Shown: positions 19,400 to 32,040 of the stretch, in pieces | Numbering within the stretch: position 1 is the first letter of the stretch | Layout: every line of letters starts with the position of its first letter | NCBI GenBank assembly: GCA_039930045.1 | Contig: JBDSQB010000002.1 | Span: forward strand, 388,286-452,285 | Length of the DNA: 64,000 nt | Direction of reading: 5' to 3' | Source: Chthoniobacterales bacterium | Lineage (GTDB): Bacteria; Verrucomicrobiota; Verrucomicrobiia; Chthoniobacterales; DASVRZ01 | Made by a program: the position numbers and the translations under genes | The notes under the pieces: model-generated | Seen by the model: only the letters and a program-made list of their open reading frames with translations | The model's database searches: none | Told to the model about the DNA's origin: nothing

Positions 19400-20434
19400 T
19401 CAGCGCCCGTAAAGGCACTGGCTGAGGTAGCCGGAAATGGCCGTCGCGCGGTTCTCGGCGCGGAGAGCGGCGATTTTCGAGCGGTCCACTTCGAGGGCGC
19501 GTTCCCAGAGCCAGGTGAGGTTGTTGCCGCTGACGGTGAGAACGTCCTGAATGTTTTTCGGGTCGTCGGTGCGCGGCGCTTTCACGTCGAAGCAGATGAT
19601 GCCGTCCCAAGCAGTGTCCTGGAGGACGACGCAGAGCGCGAGATCCTTGACGGGTTCGATGATGCCAAATGGCAGATCCTGATCGTAACGCTGGCCGTCC
19701 TGGGAATTAAGATGGATGTGGAAAAGCTTGTTGGCCTCCAGACACATTTCGATGTCCCAGAGGTAATCGAGGCCGGCGATGCGGCTGTGAGCGGTCTCGG
19801 GGTTCAACCCGAAAAGCGGCTGCACGCTCGGATCGAGGCGGCTGATCAAATACAGCGCCTCGCCCACATTGGCGAGATACATGTTGGCGCGGGGTTCGTT
19901 GGGCTTGGGTTCGAGTGCAAATCGAATGGAGTGTCCGTATTTTTCCAAGGCGTACTGCCCGACGGCGTTGAAGCCCTCGACGAGGCGCTGAAAGGAGTCA
20001 CGGCCGTTTTTGGCGAGGACGAAGTCGAAGCCTTCTCGACCATTCCAGAAGACCATGGTCTCAGCCCCCATGACGTGGGTGGTGTCCACTGCGAGCTTGG
20101 CGTTGGCGAGGCCCTTGGCGCGGATGGCGGAGTCGTTGGAGGTCATGGCGCCGTCCTTGAAGATGGAGTCGGCGAAGAACGAGGGGGTGTACATCGCGCA
20201 CTTGAGGCCGCATTTTTCCGCGACCGCGAGAGCCCTCTCGGCGTCGGTCGCAGGGATTTCCGAATCATGCGCCTCAAACCACGACATGCCGGCCTCGGCG
20301 AGCATCGGGATGCGGTCGATGAAAGGAATCGCCTCGCGCGTCGGGCCGCCAAAAGGATCGCCCCCGGGTCCGAGATTCCAGACGCCTGCTCCGACGCCTT
20401 GTTTGCCTGCCTTGTTTTTGAGTTGAAATGACAT
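19400..20434 (-). CDS. Xylose isomerase family protein (actinobacterial-type), altered metal-1 ligand
   Basis: A TIM-barrel sugar isomerase of 344 residues, similar along its length to the shorter class I xylose isomerases. Conserved parts are GGDPFGG, His56 (EAHDSEIP), FALEPKPNEPR (Glu175, Lys177), NPETAH (Glu213, His216), RYDQDLPFG (Asp251, Asp253) and CFDVKAPR. At the position of the metal-1 ligand Asp245 of the Streptomyces enzyme, this protein has His241 (LFHIHLNSQDG). That may retune metal or substrate preference, so xylose is not assured. ATG 20434 fits the family N-terminus better than the in-frame ATG at 20473. No xylulokinase is nearby. Confidence 0.85.
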   Translation of the reverse strand: MSFQLKNKAGKQGVGAGVWNLGPGGDPFGGPTREAIPFIDRIPMLAEAGMSWFEAHDSEIPATDAERALAVAEKCGLKCAMYTPSFFADSIFKDGAMTSNDSAIRAKGLANAKLAVDTTHVMGAETMVFWNGREGFDFVLAKNGRDSFQRLVEGFNAVGQYALEKYGHSIRFALEPKPNEPRANMYLANVGEALYLISRLDPSVQPLFGLNPETAHSRIAGLDYLWDIEMCLEANKLFHIHLNSQDGQRYDQDLPFGIIEPVKDLALCVVLQDTAWDGIICFDVKAPRTDDPKNIQDVLTVSGNNLTWLWERALEVDRSKIAALRAENRATAISGYLSQCLYGR

Positions 20435-20531
20435 GATGTGAGAGGGTGTAAGTTGCTGCGATGGGTGGGTCATCTAAGCACTTGGCCAAGCGGGTGACAA
20501 TCGGTAATTTTCCACCTCCGCAACGATTTAA

Positions 20532-21728
20532 CTAATGGGTAAACCCGACGCCGGACGCGATGCTCCAAGGCGTTTCCTTGGTGGAGAAGGGCGGGAGTTT
20601 GTCGTCGGGTTTGACGGTGGGGACCAGTTTGCTCACGCGGAAGAGGGGAAGAATGGGCAGTCCGGCTGGGTCTTTGTCGTAAACACCACCCATTTTTTCG
20701 AGGAGGAGATAGGCGTGCATCAGGCCGCCGGGACATTCTCCGATCAAGACCTCCATGTCGTAGCGGCCACCGGCGCTGACTTCGAACCATTTGCCCGCGA
20801 CTGGACCACGATCGCCCGAGATATTTTTTAAGTTCTCGTAGCTGTATCGGACGGGTGGACTGGCCAGAGTTTCCTTCACGCGACCTTGGGCGAAGACGAC
20901 GCTACCATTGAAGCGGATGATCAAAATATCGTCGCCCAAGCCGACGAAACGGAAGCGGCCGCTGGAGGGTGAAACGACTTTCGCTTTGTAATGCGCCACC
21001 CAGAGACGGGGTTTCACCTTGTCCTGCAAGGCAAACGCTTTCGGCCCTTCATCGGCGTTGATGATCGGCACAAAAAGATAGGGCGCGTAGAGTGGATTGG
21101 GACCCGCGAAGTATTTTCGCAGCTCACTTTCGTTCCAGGAACCCTTCACCCAGGCCTGCACGAAGGCGGCCCATTTGGCGTCGTCCATGTCGGTCGGCTT
21201 GCCGTCCTTGGTTTGTTTGAGGTCGTAGAAGGTTCCCTTTAGCGCGTCTTGAGTAGCATTGCGTAATCCAAACATTGTCAGGCCACCTCCTCCTACACTT
21301 CCCGGGGCGAGTCCGGCCCCACCCGAAATCTGCCCCATGCCAGTGCCGCCCATGCCGGCCATTTTCGAGGGAGTCGTGGGCCCGAGCGATGGCAGCGCGG
21401 GCATATCCGGAAGGCTGACCTTGGCCAAAGCATTCGTCGTGGTCACGCGTTTAGGCTGGCTGGGTGCGCTCATGGTTTGCTGTTTTTTGGCCATCTGCAC
21501 GCGGTGCTCGACAGAGCGCTGGCTGGGATTGGGCGATGGCGGGCCGCCTTTGAAGGTGAGCTTGCGTTTGGCGGTGATAGTTTGGACGACAAGGACGGTA
21601 GCGACGAGGCCGATCAGGAGATGCACGCCGACGCTGACGAGGAAAAACTTGCTGCCAGAAAATCGTTTCCAAAGCGTCGGCTTGGGCGGACCAGACGGCG
21701 CGGGCGAGTGCGGGTCGGATGGGCTCAT
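20532..21728 (-). CDS. Membrane-anchored protein in the TonB position of an ExbB/ExbD operon; possible PA14-like C-terminal domain
   Basis: A 398-residue protein with a cytosolic Pro-rich start, one membrane helix at about 28-50 (FFLVSVGVHLLIGLVATVLV), and a Pro/Ser/Lys linker. A Gly/Met-rich stretch (GMGGTGMGQISGGAGL) and a C-terminal domain of about 220 residues follow. That domain has WVAHYKAKVVSPSSGRFRFV then GLGDDILIIRFNG, which resembles PA14-type beta sandwiches, but this is a tentative match. The topology is that of TonB, yet no TonB C-terminal domain is seen. Its start overlaps the second exbD stop by ATGA. It is the last gene of the operon. It probably uses or senses ExbBD energy at the envelope; the partner is unknown. 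Confidence 0.75.
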   Translation of the reverse strand: MSPSDPHSPAPSGPPKPTLWKRFSGSKFFLVSVGVHLLIGLVATVLVVQTITAKRKLTFKGGPPSPNPSQRSVEHRVQMAKKQQTMSAPSQPKRVTTTNALAKVSLPDMPALPSLGPTTPSKMAGMGGTGMGQISGGAGLAPGSVGGGGLTMFGLRNATQDALKGTFYDLKQTKDGKPTDMDDAKWAAFVQAWVKGSWNESELRKYFAGPNPLYAPYLFVPIINADEGPKAFALQDKVKPRLWVAHYKAKVVSPSSGRFRFVGLGDDILIIRFNGSVVFAQGRVKETLASPPVRYSYENLKNISGDRGPVAGKWFEVSAGGRYDMEVLIGECPGGLMHAYLLLEKMGGVYDKDPAGLPILPLFRVSKLVPTVKPDDKLPPFSTKETPWSIASGVGFTH

Positions 21729-22171
21729 TCCTCGTCTCCCACGGTGAAAGTGACATTCGGGATTTGGGCCACGGCGAGCGCGTCGAGCACATCGACGGTG
21801 CGGCTGTATTTCGCCGTTGGATCGCTGATGATCGTCACGACTGCAGGTGTTTTCGAGGCGTCGGCATTTTGCTTGAGACGCATCAGGACGGCCTTGAGTT
21901 GGGGCAGGTCGCGGCTAACCGGCGTGTCATAGGGCTCATCGTTCAGGGCGATTTCACCGGTGTCGGAAATGGTGATGATCTGCTCGTCCACGAAGTCGGT
22001 GGAGGAGGCGGTCTCGGCGGTGCCGGGCAAAGTGGTATTCAACTCCTTTTCCACTTTCACCGCGCCAGCCATGACCATGAAAAAAAGCATAATCACGAAG
22101 ACGACATCGATCATCGGCGCGATCTGGAAGCCGAGGGAACCTTCGTTGGGATTGAGCTCAAGGCGGCGCAT
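21725..22171 (-). CDS. exbD: ExbD/TolR family protein (second copy)
   Basis: A 148-residue biopolymer-transport protein. A short cytosolic N-terminus leads into the single membrane helix IAPMIDVVFVIMLFFMVMAG, which contains the proton-translocating Asp in the normal MIDV context. The periplasmic part follows, ending with the TolR/ExbD-like VDVLDALAVAQIPNVTFTV. It works with ExbB as a proton-driven motor in the inner membrane. It starts 3 bp beyond the first exbD and overlaps the next gene by 4 bp. The two ExbDs are clearly different in sequence, so a mixed ExbD ring or dimer is possible. Confidence 0.93.
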   Translation of the reverse strand: MRRLELNPNEGSLGFQIAPMIDVVFVIMLFFMVMAGAVKVEKELNTTLPGTAETASSTDFVDEQIITISDTGEIALNDEPYDTPVSRDLPQLKAVLMRLKQNADASKTPAVVTIISDPTAKYSRTVDVLDALAVAQIPNVTFTVGDEE

Positions 22172-22174
22172 GGG

Positions 22175-22636
22175 CTATTGTTTGTTCACGGCAGAGAAAG
22201 AAATATCGGCGATGCCCGCCGCGCCCGCGCAGTTCATCGCCTGCGAAACGTAGAGCGCCGGCACATCCTGGTCGCCTCGAATGATGATGCGGAAACTCGG
22301 ATTTTGCCCGGCGGTGATTTTCTTCTCGCCCGCCTGCCGCGCCGATAGAAGGAGCGGCGTCAGTTCAGAGCTTTGGGTGTAAACCTTGTCATTGAAGACA
22401 AACTCCGCCTTCTTTTCCTCTGCTTTCCAGCGGACGTTCACGACGGCCTCGGAGCGGGTGTTGTCCTTTTTCTGAGCGTCGGGGGCAAGCGGGAGTTTGA
22501 TGGTTTTGTCCACCTTCAGCACCTGCGCAGAGGTGATCGTCATAAAGAAAATGAGCAGCACCAGAAGCACGTCGATCATCGGCGCGATCTGGAACTCCGG
22601 TTCGCCGGAATCGCTGCCTCCACCGCCACCGGCCAT
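22175..22636 (-). CDS. exbD: ExbD/TolR family protein (first copy)
   Basis: A 153-residue ExbD. The N-terminus is Gly-rich (MAGGGGGSDSGEPEFQ), then the membrane helix IAPMIDVLLVLLIFFMTITS has the conserved Asp. The periplasmic domain includes FRIIIRGDQDVPALYVSQAM, close to the ExbD/TolR consensus for the self-promoted fold. A good Shine-Dalgarno (AAGGAG, 8 bp before ATG) is present, unlike at most genes here. It lies 64 bp after exbB and 3 bp before the second exbD. Confidence 0.94.
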   Translation of the reverse strand: MAGGGGGSDSGEPEFQIAPMIDVLLVLLIFFMTITSAQVLKVDKTIKLPLAPDAQKKDNTRSEAVVNVRWKAEEKKAEFVFNDKVYTQSSELTPLLLSARQAGEKKITAGQNPSFRIIIRGDQDVPALYVSQAMNCAGAAGIADISFSAVNKQ

Positions 22637-22700
22637 GTTAGAAGCTCCTTTCGATTGGGATCAAAGTCATCATCGGAAAATGCATTTGCTGAGAGCGTGA

Positions 22701-23519
22701 TCAGACCTGCTCGACTTGCGCTGGCGCATGCCAGTTGGGCAGCGCTGCAAAGAGTTCCTCGTCTCCGATATGAACGCCAGTCAGTGCCTCGTAGGGCATT
22801 TTGCGGAAGAGCGTGGCCACGGAATCCTGGATGTGATGGATGACTCCAGCGGCGCGATTGCGGAGGAAATAGAAACTGCCAAACGCCGGAATCGCGATGA
22901 AAAGTCCGCTCGCCGTCGCCACCAGCACCTCGCCGATGGCGGCAGAAAGACTCGACGGATCGCCGATGCCGGAACTGCCCAAAGTGCCAAACGCCTTGAT
23001 CATGCCCGTGACCGTTCCGACCAAACCGATCATCGGCGTGCAAACGCCGATGACGGACAGATAGCTGATCCAAGTCTGCATCTGGGCATTTTCCTTGGCG
23101 ATCTCGCCCATGATGCCCTCCTCGGTGCTTTGTTTGCCGTCGCCGAGCAGGCTGATGCCGACGCGCAGGACGTTGGTCAGAGGCGACGGATTATCGCGGC
23201 AATAATTGTAGGCACCCACGTAATCTCCCTGGCGGAAAAGATCCTTCACCGCCTGCTCATGCTGCGGCGGGAGGACTCTCTTCGCACTCGTCCGGATGAC
23301 GCCGTCGCCGATCAGGTAAACAGTGAAAATGGAGCACGCGCCGATCGGGAACATCACCCATCCGCCTTCGCGAATCTGGTCCCAGAGCGTTTTGTGAACG
23401 ACGGCGGGCTTGGCTTCCGTGCCAGCGGCGGGCGCGGCCTCCTGGGCAAAAATAGGCGCGGCAGCGATCAGGAGCAGGACAGCGCCGAGGGCGAAAAGGG
23501 AGGAGCGTTTGGTGTTCAT
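22701..23519 (-). CDS. exbB: ExbB/TolQ/MotA family proton-channel protein with N-terminal signal peptide
   Basis: A 272-residue ExbB-family protein. An N-terminal signal-like helix (SSLFALGAVLLLIAAAPIFA) and a short Ala/Pro linker precede the standard three-helix core. The core shows GGWVMFPIGACSIFTVYLIG, then IGVCTPMIGLVGTVTGMIKAF and ALVATASGLFIAIPA-type helices (here LVATASGLFIAIPAFGSFYF), which line the proton path. With the two ExbDs it should form an inner-membrane motor driven by proton motive force. It follows a TPR gene by 11 bp. No TonB-dependent receptor is encoded nearby. Confidence 0.94.
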   Translation of the reverse strand: MNTKRSSLFALGAVLLLIAAAPIFAQEAAPAAGTEAKPAVVHKTLWDQIREGGWVMFPIGACSIFTVYLIGDGVIRTSAKRVLPPQHEQAVKDLFRQGDYVGAYNYCRDNPSPLTNVLRVGISLLGDGKQSTEEGIMGEIAKENAQMQTWISYLSVIGVCTPMIGLVGTVTGMIKAFGTLGSSGIGDPSSLSAAIGEVLVATASGLFIAIPAFGSFYFLRNRAAGVIHHIQDSVATLFRKMPYEALTGVHIGDEELFAALPNWHAPAQVEQV

Positions 23520-23530
23520 GGTGGAGTTTT

Positions 23531-24400
23531 TTAGAGTTGTTTGATTTCTTTTTCTGCGATGGATGCCTCGGGTGAGGTGGGATATTTTTCGATGAGAGAG
23601 CGCATGGAAGCCTCGGCGCTCGCGACGTCCGTCAGCCCCCGCCAGGCGCGGGCTGCTCCCAGCATCGCCGTGGGTTGGAGCGTGACTTGGTTGGCGTAAA
23701 AAACCGGCACATGGAGAAACGCGATGACCGCCGGATCGTACTCCTTCAGCGCGAGCAGGCTTTGACCTTTATTAAGCCAGGCGCTGGCGAGCGTGTCTGG
23801 GTCGGTGCTCTTTTCAATGATCTGGTCGTAGATCGTCAAAGCCTCCTTGTCCTTGCCTTGGCGGGTCAAAATCGCTGCCTTCTCCACCTGCACACGGTCG
23901 GCAATTAGTGGATCGACCCCCGCCGAGGCAGCGATCTGGTTGAGCAGAGTTTCGGCGTCCTTCGAGCGTTGCAATGCGAGTAGAGCCTTCATTTTCAGGA
24001 AAGCGGTCGCCTGCCAGAAATTGCCCGGGATGTCTCGGAACGGTGTGTAAAAAGCGAGGATCGGCTCCACTTTGATCATCGCCTCCTCCGCTTTTCCATC
24101 CGCCAGCAAACCCTCGGCCTCCACGATCTGAGTGGGAGCTGGAAAGGCGACTCGCGCGATTTTGCTAACTGCGTAACCCACCTCGCCTACACCCGCCGCG
24201 AGCGGCACCATGATCATCGAGCCGTCGCGCCGCAGGGAAGGCACATCGAGGCTGGTGCCGTCCTTCATGAGAATCTTCACCGTCGGCCCAGCGGGCGCGG
24301 GCGCTGGGACTGCGGCAGGAACAGGCGCTAATTTCAGTGTCTGCGCGATGACGCCCAGAGGCAGGAGCAACAGGACGATAAGAATGGAACTCGTCTTCAT
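23531..24400 (-). CDS. Exported TPR-like protein in the ExbB operon
   Basis: A 289-residue protein with a signal peptide (SSILIVLLLLPLGVIAQ). A short beta-rich section follows (VKILMKDGTSLDVPSLRRDG), and then TPR-like helix pairs from about residue 90 to the end (AEGLLADGKAEEAMIKVEPI, LTRQGKDKEALTIYDQIIEK, AWLNKGQSLLALKEYDPAVI). It is predicted to be periplasmic. It overlaps the 948-residue TPR gene upstream by 4 bp (ATGA) and precedes exbB by 11 bp, so it is part of the same transcript and probably the same complex. I do not recognise a named family beyond TPR. Confidence 0.85.
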   Translation of the reverse strand: MKTSSILIVLLLLPLGVIAQTLKLAPVPAAVPAPAPAGPTVKILMKDGTSLDVPSLRRDGSMIMVPLAAGVGEVGYAVSKIARVAFPAPTQIVEAEGLLADGKAEEAMIKVEPILAFYTPFRDIPGNFWQATAFLKMKALLALQRSKDAETLLNQIAASAGVDPLIADRVQVEKAAILTRQGKDKEALTIYDQIIEKSTDPDTLASAWLNKGQSLLALKEYDPAVIAFLHVPVFYANQVTLQPTAMLGAARAWRGLTDVASAEASMRSLIEKYPTSPEASIAEKEIKQL

Positions 24401-27243
24401 CCGGGTGTGAGTGCTTTCAGACGTTCGCGAGCCGTGGCAATTTCCGGAAAGGCAGCCAGTTTTTCCAGACGCAACATCTCCTGGTAAGTGCGGGTCGCCT
24501 CCTGGATTTTGCCGAGTTTTTCAAAGCACTCGGCGCTGCCCAAATATGATTTCGCGACCCACGGCAGGTAGCGCTGATAAGCAACATAGACGCGCTGATA
24601 AAACGCAATGGCTTCCGGCAAACGATTTTGTTGACGCTCGATTTCCCCCAGCGAATACACGGAAAAAGCCGTCGCCTCACCCCGCCAGTCGCGGATGGAG
24701 GCTACTTGCTCAAAAATTTTCCTGGCCTCATCCAAACGGTTGAGCGCGAGCAGGGTTTTGGCTTTTCCGAGCGTCACATCCTTCAGCTTGGTGGTCGCGC
24801 CCGCCTTGTCGATCGCGTCAGTAAAATAGGTCAGCGCCTTCGGATAATCCTTGCGCTGGAAAGCGATTTCACCCAGGCCGTTCCATGCGAAATCGACGTA
24901 ATCGCTTCTCGGAAAGTCGTTCATCAAACGCTGGAAAATCGGCTCCGCCTGATCGATGCGCCCCTTGCCTAAAAGACAATCTCCGACCTGCGCGAGCAGT
25001 ACCGAACTGAAATCCGCCGGCTGAAACCGGTCGGCAATGGCTTGCAGGGCGGTTTGTTCTTCCGCGCTTTTTTTCCGCAGCCGGGCCAGTTCGGCCGTCG
25101 CAAAAAGAATCCGGGCCTGTGCCGTGGGCGTGCTGCCGGTGCCGAGCAAACGATCCATCTCGGCCTGCGGATCGTAAGCGGGCGATGTGGCGCCGTCCGC
25201 AACAGATGCCGGCGAGGCGCTGGGAGAAGCGACAGGGACTGGGGTGCCTTTTTTTAAACAAAGCTGGGCGAGCTGGGTCAGAAGCTGCTCCACGGCATCG
25301 CGTTTCGGATCGTTGATAAACCGCTTGATCGTGTCGGCGGTGAACGTGCGGGCCTCGTCCACCTTGCCTTCACGGGCCTTCGCCTTGCCGACCCAGTAAA
25401 GGGCGGACGCCACCGTCGGATGCTCGGGATGAGTGGTGACAAACTCCTGGAAAAGCTGGCCAATGCCGGCCCAGTCGCCTTTCTTCTGCATCAGCTTTTG
25501 CGCGGCAAAGAGCGAGTAATTCAGCACTTCATCCGTGGTGGCTGCCTGATAGGAGCGGACATATTCGGCGATGGCTTCGTCATTTTTGTTCGTCGCGGCG
25601 AGCGAGTCGGCCTTCAACGCCAGCACCTCGCCGAGCATCGGATCGGCTTTGAATTGCCTCCCCCAAGCGACCGAATCCGCCACCACTTCATCGTAGAGCG
25701 AGGCCGAGTATTTGCAGACATTGATGCGGTAACGCACGTCGGCCACGAAGTTTCCCTGGGGATACTTGGCGAGGTAGCCCTGCAGCAACCCGAGCGCCTC
25801 CTCGTATTTGCCGGCGAACAATTTCGCCATGGCCGCGCGATAGATAATTTCCTCCGTGTGCGCACCGGTGGGAAATTCCTTTGTATAAAGCGCGTAACTT
25901 TCCGCCGCCTCGGGAAACTTGCCCAAGGCCATGCGGGTGTTGCCCATCAGATAGATCATTTCCTCGCGGTATCGGCTGGTCGGCTGATCCTGCAGCATTC
26001 GTCCGAAATAGGTTTCCGCCGCTTGCGCATCGCCCGATTGTAGTGCCGTCTGACCGAGCAGCAGACCGACCGTGGAGGCGTTTGGATTAGTCGGGTAGGT
26101 CTTCAGATATTCCTCGCAATATTTTCTGGAAGGCTGCACGCGCCCGACTTCCGCCGAGCAAACCGTGGCTCCGAAAAGCGCTGGCTCATGCTCCGCCGAA
26201 GTGGGATAACGCCGCAGGATTTCCTCGTAGGCGACGATGGATTCCCATTTTTTTCCCTGCAAATAAAAGGCGCGCGCCACCCGCAGATAGAGAGCCGGAG
26301 TGAAATCGGGCAGGTTCCGCGCCTCCTCCACCAGCTTGGCTGCATCGGCCAGTTTCGCCTTCAACGTATTGTTCGCCCCCACGAGCTGGACCGCCTTGGA
26401 AACCTCCGCCCGCATGGTGGCGACGTTGGCGTCGATCTTCGCCTGAAGGTCTTTCACCTGCTGTTCCTGAAACCGAACGACTTCCGGCTTCGGCAGTGCG
26501 AATCGGTAACAAGTCAGCGCCTCAGCCGGTTGCTCTTTTTCGAGAAAACCGTCGCCTAGCTCAACCGCGAGCGCGTTGAGACGCATCACATTGTCCATCA
26601 GACTCAGCTTGGAACGCACCAGCTCGAGCGTGGCGGTGGCTTTGGCTGGATCGTTCGCGGCGGCATAAAGACTGGCAAGTTGAATGGCCCCCACGGCCGC
26701 AGCCTGACTGGCAACGCCTTTGCCGATGAGTTTTTCCAAAGCCGCGATGGCTTCTGCTGTCTGCCCGGTTTCCTTGTAAGCCGCGGCCTCGGCAGACAGG
26801 GCGTCGTCGCGATACTGCGGGAGATTTTCCAGTTCCTTGTAACTCGCAATGGCCTCGGCGTATTGTTTGCCCTGCATGCATGCCTGCGCGATCGATTGCA
26901 GGACCTCGGCCCGACGCGTACTCTGGGGAAATTTGGTGAGATAAGTACGCAGGGTGGCAATCGCGCCGGGGAAGTTCCCAAGGTTGTAATAGGCCGCACC
27001 AAGCGTGAAATAAATCGGCTCGAGCTGCGGCGTGTCCTGCGCAGTTTTCAAGAGCGCCTGCAGCTTGTCCGCAGCGACTTGATAATTGCCCGCTTGGAAA
27101 GCGGTCGAACCCTCCTGAAAAAGAACGGCCACATCCGACGGTGGAGGCGCCTGGGCGGCCACGCGCGAGACATCCAAGATGCCGAGCAAAATGCCTGCGA
27201 CCAAAATTAGCCGCGCCTGACGTTGTAACCTGGGGAGTTGCAC
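24397..27243 (-). CDS. Large exported TPR protein (948 residues)
   Basis: Begins at a GTG, with a signal peptide (LILVAGILLGILDVSRVAAQ). The rest is a long array of TPR units from about residue 40 to the end, for example FQAGNYQVAADKLQALLKTA, YYNLGNFPGAIATLRTYLTK, LFAGKYEEALGLLQGYLAKY and AFQRKDYPKALTYFTDAIDK. A Pro/Ser/Ala spacer with PVASPSASPASV splits the array near residue 668. Such proteins act as periplasmic scaffolds; the arrangement recalls the TolA-YbgF and gliding/transport scaffolds, but homology is not claimed. It is the first gene of the tight ExbB block; a 67-bp AT-rich spacer upstream may carry a promoter. Confidence 0.88.
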   Translation of the reverse strand: MQLPRLQRQARLILVAGILLGILDVSRVAAQAPPPSDVAVLFQEGSTAFQAGNYQVAADKLQALLKTAQDTPQLEPIYFTLGAAYYNLGNFPGAIATLRTYLTKFPQSTRRAEVLQSIAQACMQGKQYAEAIASYKELENLPQYRDDALSAEAAAYKETGQTAEAIAALEKLIGKGVASQAAAVGAIQLASLYAAANDPAKATATLELVRSKLSLMDNVMRLNALAVELGDGFLEKEQPAEALTCYRFALPKPEVVRFQEQQVKDLQAKIDANVATMRAEVSKAVQLVGANNTLKAKLADAAKLVEEARNLPDFTPALYLRVARAFYLQGKKWESIVAYEEILRRYPTSAEHEPALFGATVCSAEVGRVQPSRKYCEEYLKTYPTNPNASTVGLLLGQTALQSGDAQAAETYFGRMLQDQPTSRYREEMIYLMGNTRMALGKFPEAAESYALYTKEFPTGAHTEEIIYRAAMAKLFAGKYEEALGLLQGYLAKYPQGNFVADVRYRINVCKYSASLYDEVVADSVAWGRQFKADPMLGEVLALKADSLAATNKNDEAIAEYVRSYQAATTDEVLNYSLFAAQKLMQKKGDWAGIGQLFQEFVTTHPEHPTVASALYWVGKAKAREGKVDEARTFTADTIKRFINDPKRDAVEQLLTQLAQLCLKKGTPVPVASPSASPASVADGATSPAYDPQAEMDRLLGTGSTPTAQARILFATAELARLRKKSAEEQTALQAIADRFQPADFSSVLLAQVGDCLLGKGRIDQAEPIFQRLMNDFPRSDYVDFAWNGLGEIAFQRKDYPKALTYFTDAIDKAGATTKLKDVTLGKAKTLLALNRLDEARKIFEQVASIRDWRGEATAFSVYSLGEIERQQNRLPEAIAFYQRVYVAYQRYLPWVAKSYLGSAECFEKLGKIQEATRTYQEMLRLEKLAAFPEIATARERLKALTPG

Positions 27244-27310
27244 GGGAGAATTAAAAAACTCTCAGCTCATATTTTCAATACAAATTCCAGAAAAATGTGA
27301 CAGCAAAAGC

Positions 27311-28732
27311 TTACCCGCCGTAGGAGCTTTCCACGCGGTGGGCGACGTCTTTGTAGCCATAATCGACCTCGTAAATCTGCTTAAAGCAGTCGAGCGACTC
27401 GTCCTTTTTGCTCATCTGCTCGAAGACCATGCCGAGGTTGTAAAGAATGTCTTTTTTCGTGGCATCCATCACGAGAATTTCCTTGGCCGCGTCCTCGAAG
27501 GTGCGGACGGAGAGGTCGAGCATGTTCAAATTTTGGTAGCAGCGGCCCAACAAATTCATGGCGCGCAGGCGGACGTTCGGGCTTTTGCGGGCGCTTTGCA
27601 GCTCAGGAATCGCGTCGCGATAGGCGCCGGTGTTGACCAGCACTTCGCCCAACTCGAAATGGAGCATGAGGTCAGTGGGATTCTTTTCCACGCGTTTACG
27701 GGCCTCGCCCAGGAGCGCCTCGGCGCGGAGTCGGCGATACTCGGTGAGATAGCCCTCATACTCCGGCACCGCAGGGTCATTTGGGTTGTTGGCGAGGAAA
27801 TCCTCGTAAGCCTTAATATTGTCGTCGTAGAGCTTCATTTGCAGGTCGGTGGCCTTGCGAACGAGCGTGGAATCGGTGTTTTGCGTGAGGGACGCGGCGT
27901 AGGTGAACCATTGCACTGCCGTGGGCAGATCACCCTTTTGCTCGAAGAGACCGGCCATTTTGCGGACGACATCGAGGTTGGAGGGGTTCTCGTTGTAGCG
28001 GACGGTCAGCTCGGCGAGCTGGTTTTCGATCATCTCCTCGGAACGCACGGAGCGGTTTTGCTGTTCCAGCGAGGTGGCGAGTTCCTTGTCCACGATGAGG
28101 TCGCGGTAGTCCTTTGTGCCACCCGACTCGGCGACGGCCTCCCAGCCCCCGCTTTTCATGGAGGAGGCGGCGGCGGCGTCCTTGCCAAACTTGACCGCGG
28201 CGATGTCGTTACGGTTAATCTCGACGAGTTCATTATAGACTTCGACCGCTTTCGCGGGCTCGCCGTGCTCGTAGTAAAGCTTGCCGAGTTCGTGCAGGAC
28301 CTTGACGTTTTTCGGGTTGCCGTCGCGCAGGGTTTCCATGGCGAACCGGGCGGTCTCATACAGATCGAGGGCGAGAGCGCCTTCTTTGATTACCTCGTTG
28401 GCCTGCGTGTTATACGGGTCGCCGTCGAGGATTTTTTCCGCAGCATCCATCGCGCCGGCGGGATCTTTTTTGAGGAGGCCCTGCGCCTTCATTGCGCCAA
28501 TTGGAGAACCGCCCTTAAGTCCGCCAAAAAAGCCTTTTTTCTCCTTCACCAAGCCGACCTCGACCTTGCGCAACACCTTGCGTCCGTCCACGAAACCGGG
28601 CTCCTCGCGCAGCACGTCCTGGAGCAGGGTGATGCCGTATTGATAGTTCTTCAGCTCGAGCGCCTGAATGGCTTTGAGATAATTGCTGCGAGCTTGGGTG
28701 GAGAGTTGTTTTTCGGTTTTGGGAGGAGGCAT
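27311..28732 (-). CDS. TPR protein, probably cytosolic (473 residues)
   Basis: There is no signal peptide. The N-terminus (YLKAIQALELKNYQYGITLL) opens a TPR array, and a Gly/Lys-rich insertion follows (KKGFFGGLKGGSPIGAMKA). Further TPR units extend to the C-terminus, including LGKLYYEHGEPAKAVEVYNE, MAGLFEQKGDLPTAVQWFTY and LGMVFEQMSKKDESLDCFKQ. It is followed by the ExbB-linked TPR genes after 67 bp and preceded by a small membrane-protein gene, all on the same strand. It may act on the cytosolic side of the same system. The gene has a long open antisense frame (27338-28924), which I regard as a compositional shadow. Confidence 0.87.
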   Translation of the reverse strand: MPPPKTEKQLSTQARSNYLKAIQALELKNYQYGITLLQDVLREEPGFVDGRKVLRKVEVGLVKEKKGFFGGLKGGSPIGAMKAQGLLKKDPAGAMDAAEKILDGDPYNTQANEVIKEGALALDLYETARFAMETLRDGNPKNVKVLHELGKLYYEHGEPAKAVEVYNELVEINRNDIAAVKFGKDAAAASSMKSGGWEAVAESGGTKDYRDLIVDKELATSLEQQNRSVRSEEMIENQLAELTVRYNENPSNLDVVRKMAGLFEQKGDLPTAVQWFTYAASLTQNTDSTLVRKATDLQMKLYDDNIKAYEDFLANNPNDPAVPEYEGYLTEYRRLRAEALLGEARKRVEKNPTDLMLHFELGEVLVNTGAYRDAIPELQSARKSPNVRLRAMNLLGRCYQNLNMLDLSVRTFEDAAKEILVMDATKKDILYNLGMVFEQMSKKDESLDCFKQIYEVDYGYKDVAHRVESSYGG

Positions 28733-28768
28733 GGGGGAAATGAGCGACCCGGAAAGGGTCAGGTTAAA

Positions 28769-28957
28769 TTATTTGGTGCCGTCTTGCGAACGGACTTTCG
28801 CGGGTGCGGTGTAGGCTTGAAAACGGGCATATTCGGACTTGGCATTTTTGGTGTAGTCCTTCACGAAATCCTTGGAGCCATACTCGAAAAAGATGATAAA
28901 CGACAAGGTAAACACGGCAAATAATGCCACCCAGAAAAGTTTGCGGAGTAAGCCCAT
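28769..28957 (-). CDS. Small single-pass membrane protein (62 residues)
   Basis: The frame begins MGLLRKLFWVALFAVFTLSF and has one membrane helix (about residues 6-24). A charged, soluble C-terminus of about 38 residues (EYGSKDFVKDYTKNAKSEYA) follows. Positive residues before the helix put the N-terminus in the cytosol, so the tail would be periplasmic. It lies 36 bp before the 473-residue TPR gene on the same strand, supporting a shared transcript. No family is recognised. A longer overlapping frame exists on the same strand, but it lacks any membrane-protein logic and I discount it. Confidence 0.65.
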   Translation of the reverse strand: MGLLRKLFWVALFAVFTLSFIIFFEYGSKDFVKDYTKNAKSEYARFQAYTAPAKVRSQDGTK

Positions 28958-31784: not shown

Positions 31785-31858
31785 GCACCCATAGCTCAAT
31801 TGGATAGAGCATCTGACTACGGATCAGAAGGTTTGAAGTTCGAGTCTTCATGGGTGCA
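31785..31858 (+). tRNA. tRNA-Arg(ACG)
   Basis: A 74-nt cloverleaf. The acceptor stem pairs GCACCCA (31785-31791) with TGGGTGC (31851-31857), with discriminator A at 31858. The D-arm is TAGCTCAATTGGATAGAGC. The anticodon stem TCTGA/TCAGA encloses the loop CTACGGA with anticodon ACG at 31819-31821. The T-arm has GTTCGAGTC. CCA is not encoded (ACATC follows), so it must be added after transcription. The anticodon A34 is expected to be edited to inosine to read CGU, CGC and CGA. Confidence 0.96.
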
Positions 31859-31964
31859 CATCTAACCTCAAGGAACGGGTTGGATTTCATTCTGACTGCC
31901 ATGCGTGCGGTCGGGATCATTCAAAAACGCTCCATTTTTCTGCGACAACACCACTCGATTGAGT

Positions 31965-32040
31965 TGGTGACCCTAACGGGATTCGAACCCGTGTTACTCC
32001 CGTGAAAGGGGAGTGTCCTAGACCTCTGGACGATAGGGTC
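31965..32040 (-). tRNA. tRNA-Glu(TTC)
   Basis: On the minus strand the acceptor pairs GACCCTA with TAGGGTC. The D-arm is TCGTCCAGAGGTCTAGGACA. The anticodon stem CTCCC/GGGAG encloses CTTTCAC with anticodon TTC (complement of 32004-32006). The T-arm is ACGGGTTCGAATCCCGT. CCA is encoded (complement of 31965-31967), unlike in the neighbouring tRNA-Arg. The two tRNA genes point at each other, 106 bp apart. Confidence 0.97.

Follow-up and report, generated by a model that had tools for sequence, protein, structure and literature searches.

The window analyzed is a 64,000-nt stretch of DNA from a 3.5-Mb genome that carries ten ExbD genes. The nearest named relatives are MAGs of Chthoniobacterales/Spartobacteria, and the DNA probably comes from that order of Verrucomicrobiota. 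The cluster has eight open reading frames on the minus strand (Table 1), and the gaps measured along the gene order were 36, 67, -4, 11, 64, 3 and -4 bp. The eight genes, their single strand and their positions agreed with the preliminary description of this DNA, and the measured gaps bore out its spacers of 3-67 bp and its two ATGA overlaps. Pfam searches of the eight genes recovered one ExbB, two different ExbDs and TPR repeats in the 473-, 948- and 289-aa proteins, also as described earlier. A promoter scan at the cluster found 2 sites, with 2.5 expected. A sugar-isomerase-like gene lay 58 bp downstream of the cluster, a position that was not conserved in relatives.

Table 1. Genes of the cluster and predicted parts of TD398, in window coordinates
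Feature	Coordinates	Strand	Basis or remark
62-aa membrane protein	28769..28957	-	Neighbor outside the module; Pfam/NCBIfam family match absent
TPR473, cytosolic TPR protein	27311..28732	-	Neighbor outside the module; near-universal in the class (77/93 genomes)
TPR948, large exported TPR protein	24397..27243	-	Sec signal, no lipobox; Pfam TPR; full-length homologues across the phylum, with ExbB following
TPR289, exported; small N-terminal beta domain (residues 41-85) and TPR helices	23531..24400	-	AlphaFold2 pLDDT 87
ExbB/TolQ-like predicted proton channel subunit, with N-terminal signal-like segment	22701..23519	-	MotA_ExbB (PF01618), 81.6 bits; tree; pore Thr
ExbD1, TolR-like subunit	22175..22636	-	ExbD (PF02472), 63.7 bits; own lineage; transmembrane Asp 29/29
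ExbD2, second TolR-like subunit	21725..22171	-	ExbD (PF02472), 65.9 bits; separate lineage (99/97); transmembrane Asp 28/28
TD398 (398 aa), putative TonB-like force transducer with PA14 head	20532..21728	-	AlphaFold2 model; fold matches
TD398 transmembrane helix, residues 20-53, with Ser32 and His36	21570..21671	-	AlphaFold2; alignment
TD398 disordered periplasmic linker, residues 54-150	21279..21569	-	Mostly pLDDT 40-60
TD398 predicted PA14 lectin-like domain, residues 151-392	20553..21278	-	AlphaFold2; fold matches; Pfam PA14 in homologues

Homologues of TPR948 were searched for in 195 genomes of the phylum, and the neighborhoods of the best matches were compared; a scan of genome contigs with TPR948 as the single query gave no match. 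An ExbB of the window family followed the TPR948 homologue in 17/17 loci picked for TPR948 (L062-L078). Both ExbDs were recognized in 14 of the 17, and in 13 of these 14 the next gene encoded a transducer with a Ser...His helix, the exception being L076, which has no His. The order TPR948-TPR289-ExbB-ExbD1-ExbD2-TD was also present at L125-L129 and L144 of a named genome collection, a set that partly overlaps the first analysis (L127 is L062, and L129 is L080). The synteny of the six-gene order reached across the phylum, and the module was missing from many genomes. Three loci (L092, L130 and L131) had TPR948, TPR289 and a transducer with no motor genes locally, so that the motor either acts in trans or was lost there.

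The two genes at the upstream end did not share this conservation. TPR473 was found in 77/93 genomes of the class, with nearly all matches full-length, and in motor-bearing genomes it was located on other contigs or at a distance from the motor (C5 versus C14 in G018; C51 versus C90 in G008). The 62-aa protein had no consistent counterpart upstream of TPR473 homologues and traveled with neither TPR473 nor the motor module. Because relatives carry TPR473 at other places and show no constant partner for the 62-aa protein, the eight-gene unit proposed earlier is unsupported; the predicted conservation of the gene neighborhood was borne out for the six genes from TPR948 to TD398. Judged by conserved gene order, the module is composed of TPR948, TPR289, ExbB, ExbD1, ExbD2 and TD398, six genes rather than eight.

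The residues of the proton pathway were kept in the motor proteins, with the transmembrane Asp present in 29/29 ExbD1 and 28/28 ExbD2 sequences and both pore Thr retained in 32/32 ExbB. ExbD1 and ExbD2 formed two separate lineages occurring side by side throughout the phylum, which suggests a heterodimeric ExbD core. With NCBIfam profiles, both ExbDs scored as TolR-like and TPR948 as a YbgF/CpoB-like TPR protein. One ExbB clade (support 97/98) united the window family with the ExbBs of a presumed Akkermansia MUL1 locus, described below, and the canonical ExbBs of Ton/Tol type from the genome that holds the window fell outside it. The ExbD1 of the presumed MUL1 locus was nested inside the ExbD1 lineage (99/99), and its ExbD2 was placed without resolved support. 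The sequence data support a TolQR/ExbBD-type proton-motive-force motor with a genetic link to two exported TPR proteins, one large and one small.

TonB and TolA dock on their motors through an N-terminal helix with a Ser...His motif. The hydrophobic helix of TD398 bears Ser32 and His36, a motif of this motor-docking type. In a 42-row alignment, the 36 rows that do not belong to the Akkermansiaceae-type group all had His36, and the six that do all lacked it; nine aligned TD rows were too divergent to yield patterns, and a four-row alignment was usable. The AlphaFold2 model of TD398 (pLDDT 78 over the whole chain, 93 for the helix and about 95 for the head) displayed a helix, a linker of about 97 residues that is mostly disordered, and a globular C-terminal domain modeled with confidence at residues 151-390. 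The TD398 gene overlaps the ExbD2 gene by 4 bp and is translationally coupled to it. Neither TD398 nor the rest of the cluster contained a TonB/TolA C-terminal domain in Pfam and NCBIfam searches, and its absence had been reported correctly for TonB in the preliminary description. By its helix, TD398 is very probably a force transducer of the TonB/TolA type, and we hold the reading of motor plus transducer with high confidence.

Foldseek matched the TD398 head best to an RTX adhesin, at its sugar-binding PA14 domain (E 7.2e-08), and carbohydrate-binding domains of the PA14, Flo and Epa types filled most of the top ranks. Alignment of the head with 6m8m by VIA-align 2 gave Z 12.7 and rmsd 3.2 over 162 aligned residues, indicating that the modeled head has the PA14 beta-sandwich fold and not a vWA fold. 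Pfam and NCBIfam searches with TD398 itself yielded no PA14 match; the assignment is made because Pfam PA14 scored over the cut-off in the homologues at L069 (34.7 bits) and L063 (24.7 bits) and because of the AlphaFold2 model. Asp266 was kept in 40/42 rows and Asp267 in 39/42, and the pair aligned with the Asp-Asp of Epa/Flo adhesins. A PDB profile search of the head, which returned weak matches only (best Epa, E 0.033), was used solely to place this pair. The conserved pair may form a working calcium-dependent lectin site, and the modeled head would then bind glycan, but not all PA14 domains are lectins.

The helix and the lectin-like head had escaped the preliminary description, which saw in this gene a membrane protein in the position of TonB. 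It had further proposed a proton-driven motor acting on a periplasmic TPR scaffold. A proton-motive-force motor tied to an exported TPR pair is upheld; given the transducer helix and the PA14 head, however, the motor most likely drives TD398 and not the TPR scaffold directly.

Other heads were carried by the same motor in relatives. Heads with a vWA domain were over the Pfam cut-off at L093 and L095 and below it at L100 and in the first copy at L063; five further vWA calls (L064, L065, L068, L071 and L073) were made by eye, with nil Pfam matches. Heads with a squalene-cyclase-like alpha-alpha toroid were detected over the cut-off at L066, L067, L070 and L072. Different heads also occurred together: L063 had vWA and PA14 transducers within one operon, L072 had a toroid transducer plus a PA14 one recognized by homology, and genome G099 had two full copies of the module whose heads differ, being PA14 in one copy and unclassified in the other. 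Additional PA14 transducers occurred solo or in tandem, and the His of these extra copies was kept in Opitutae and Kiritimatiellae and mostly lost in the Akkermansiaceae-type proteins. The vWA and toroid heads on the same motor indicate that the head is a swappable module.

For the PVC group, a 2025 paper in Mol Biol Evol (PMC12204202) reported clusters of TPR-tolQ-tolR-tolR-vWA genes with SHLS transducers. The window module resembles them in gene order and in motor make-up (TPR, TolQ-like, two different TolR-like proteins and a transducer). The transducers are alike in their plan of transmembrane helix, linker and globular domain and in the Ser/His helix motif, and close relatives of the window motor carry vWA heads. 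The differences are the PA14 head here, the alpha-alpha toroid in some relatives and a conserved second, small TPR protein. PMC12204202 contains no mention of PA14, toroid or Akkermansia, and no description of PA14-headed or toroid-headed transducers was found in the papers searched (PA14 with ExbD). The kind of motor is already known; the additions made here are transducers with PA14 or toroid heads, the conservation of the TPR pair and the presumed link to MUL1.

That link involves TPR289 as well as the motor. TPR289 scored 30-31 bits against the Mul1B family NF052542, below the cut-off of 75 bits, and was the sole match in its genome; a fold search with the whole TPR289 model as query returned generic TPR proteins only. 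Matches to NF052542 over the cut-off were confined to 17 genomes from a single genus within the class, which we infer to be Akkermansia, with its locus being MUL1. The Akkermansia mucin utilization locus MUL1 was reportedly described by Davey et al. in 2023. The presumed MUL1 locus has the order ExbB-ExbD-ExbD-TPR (~1100 aa)-Mul1B. Its ExbB, two ExbDs, large exported TPR protein and Mul1B-type protein correspond to those of the window and the motor proteins cluster together, supporting at the sequence level that the two motors are akin. It differs in gene order, in the score of TPR289 relative to the Mul1B cut-off and in having no adjoining transducer gene. According to PMC12418764, Akkermansia requires MUL genes if mucin products are to accumulate in its internal compartments; PMC13174399 likens MUL1 to Sus systems and likewise reports that mucin accumulation depends on MUL genes. 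The earlier statement that the function of such clusters is not established is therefore partly outdated, as the presumed MUL1 locus, for mucin uptake, uses the same motor families and transducer clusters have since been described (PMC12204202).

We give an even chance to the explanation that the six genes encode a proton-driven motor with a lectin-headed transducer for the capture and transport of polysaccharide. ExbB, probably as a pentamer, would form the inner-membrane motor with one ExbD1 and one ExbD2. The TD398 helix would dock on the edge of ExbB through Ser32 and His36 in the fashion of TonB and TolA, and proton flow through ExbB, ExbD1 and ExbD2 would drive TD398. The linker, long enough to cross the periplasm, would relay the strokes to the PA14 head, which would grip a glycan. 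The exported TPR948 and TPR289 may serve as a periplasmic scaffold that holds, receives or passes on the load, and the output would be energized capture of polysaccharide and its transport through the envelope, the direction and the substrate being part of this proposal.

In this reading, the module would be a broader counterpart of mucin uptake by Akkermansia MUL1. Several observations count against the polysaccharide function: the cluster encodes neither an outer-membrane barrel nor a glycosidase nor a sugar transporter, no transducer gene adjoins the presumed MUL1 locus, and the Akkermansiaceae-type PA14 proteins have lost the His. Non-lectin heads on the same motor further indicate that glycan binding is not inherent to the motor. 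A wider version, in which a motor with interchangeable PA14, vWA or toroid heads in Verrucomicrobiota and their allies grips its load by the head and pulls polysaccharide without a TonB-dependent receptor, is offered tentatively and is rather doubtful.

The main rival, which we consider unlikely, is a surface motor like Agl-Glt/Nfs that moves a surface polysaccharide or adhesin in gliding or in the handling of a sheath or coat and does not import polymer. In the Agl-Glt system of Myxococcus xanthus, AglR is the TolQ-type subunit and AglQ and AglS are the TolR-type ones; GltD and GltE are TPR proteins that are exported, and GltG has a TonB domain (PMC3169522). The window module follows the same gene recipe as Agl-Glt and Agl-Nfs, with one TolQ-like protein, two TolR-like proteins, exported TPR proteins and a TonB-like membrane protein. 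Agl also powers Nfs on the surface of the spore, acting there on the spore-coat polymer (PMC3858216), and gliding is likewise proposed for the vWA transducers (PMC12204202). On the other hand, the window motor is kin to that of the presumed MUL1 locus, Akkermansia is described as non-motile (PMC12418764), and the cluster has neither an FHA/TonB-domain protein nor a GltA/B/H-like outer-membrane barrel.

Envelope maintenance in the manner of Tol-Pal, with the transducer pulling outer-membrane or cell-wall glycan and so keeping the outer membrane tethered, appears improbable. It would fit the TolR-like scores of the ExbDs, the YbgF/CpoB-like scores of TPR948 and the TolA-like helix motif, and the motor families and helix motif are shared with both ExbB-ExbD-TonB and TolQ-TolR-TolA. 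The cluster differs from these systems, however, in having two ExbDs instead of one and no TonB/TolA C-terminal domain, receptor, Pal or TolB, with Pal, TolB and the TolA domain all absent in Pfam and NCBIfam searches. Swappable heads and tandem extra head proteins are more in keeping with a load that varies than with a housekeeping load, and a module lacking in many genomes also argues against such a role.

Quite improbable, too, is the alternative that a TonB from another locus of the genome couples ExbB and the ExbDs to ordinary TonB-dependent receptors, TD398 being an unrelated membrane lectin. The genome has two Plug (TonB-dependent receptor) matches and one TonB_C match over the cut-off, all outside the cluster. 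This alternative is at odds with the motor-docking helix of TD398 and its translational coupling to ExbD2, with a transducer adjoining the motor across the phylum, and with the position of the canonical Ton-type ExbBs of the genome outside this ExbB clade. The eight-gene motor that would act directly on the TPR scaffold and count the 62-aa protein and TPR473 among its subunits draws on the single strand and the short spacers throughout but is very improbable, as TPR473 lies on other contigs or far away where the motor occurs and no partner of the 62-aa protein is conserved.

The module joins three threads: the presumed motor of Akkermansia MUL1, the vWA force transducers known from PVC bacteria and a transducer head of lectin-like type. 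It bears on the route by which large polysaccharides (mucin, laminarin and fucoidan, for example) enter the periplasm of Verrucomicrobiota. A probable motor in a soil-type Verrucomicrobiota bacterium that is akin to the presumed one for mucin uptake in Akkermansia leads to the testable idea that polysaccharide is hauled through the envelope, and His36, the ExbD Asp and the PA14 Asp-Asp offer residue-level handles on this reading. If heads are swapped on one motor, a single chassis may serve different loads.

The ExbB and both ExbDs of a reduced second cluster in the window genome belonged to lineages shared with the window module. They were encoded with an exported 255-aa TPR289-like protein, and neither TPR948 nor a transducer was found adjoining this cluster. 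About 2.4 kb from a third group, on the opposite strand, a TonB-like protein of 431 aa was encoded, with the helix SLLFHLLLVIFF. A second PA14 transducer, an orphan, carried an in-frame stop directly ahead of its membrane helix, and the start of the gene was ambiguous; this gene is possibly broken.

Features in the window and elsewhere in its genome (G000; C, contig; L, fetched locus)
Feature	Position	Remark
TPR473, cytosolic TPR protein	27311-28732	
Xylose-isomerase-like TIM-barrel gene	19400-20473	same strand as TD398
Reduced second cluster	L082:7501-10154	G000:C2, about 307500-310150
Third group, ExbB-ExbD-TPR (907 aa)	L088:6511-14150	G000:C3
Orphan PA14 transducer	L083:7745-8953	G000:C18

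TPR473, upstream of the module, was near-universal in the class (77 of 93 genomes; full-length identity about 27-57%), and no named function was found for it in this analysis. The xylose-isomerase-like gene is located 58 bp downstream of the transducer gene TD398 and was not recognised adjoining the operon in those relatives that were annotated. Two tRNA genes, Arg(acg) on the plus strand and Glu(ttc) on the minus strand, were located at 31785-32040.

The docking His (His36 of TD398) was missing from the Akkermansiaceae-type membrane-anchored PA14 proteins (L141, L142, L147, L154, L168, L186), which occurred in tandem runs of up to six (L141, A. glycaniphila), some adjoined by very large proteins (2946 aa in L168, 2598 aa in L185, 1771 aa in L183). 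In relative locus L063 (15228-18240), both transducers carried a Pfam SAM domain N-terminal to the membrane helix, and L144:9596-11155 was similar to them as judged by eye. This suggests that the L063 transducers cluster on the cytosolic side.
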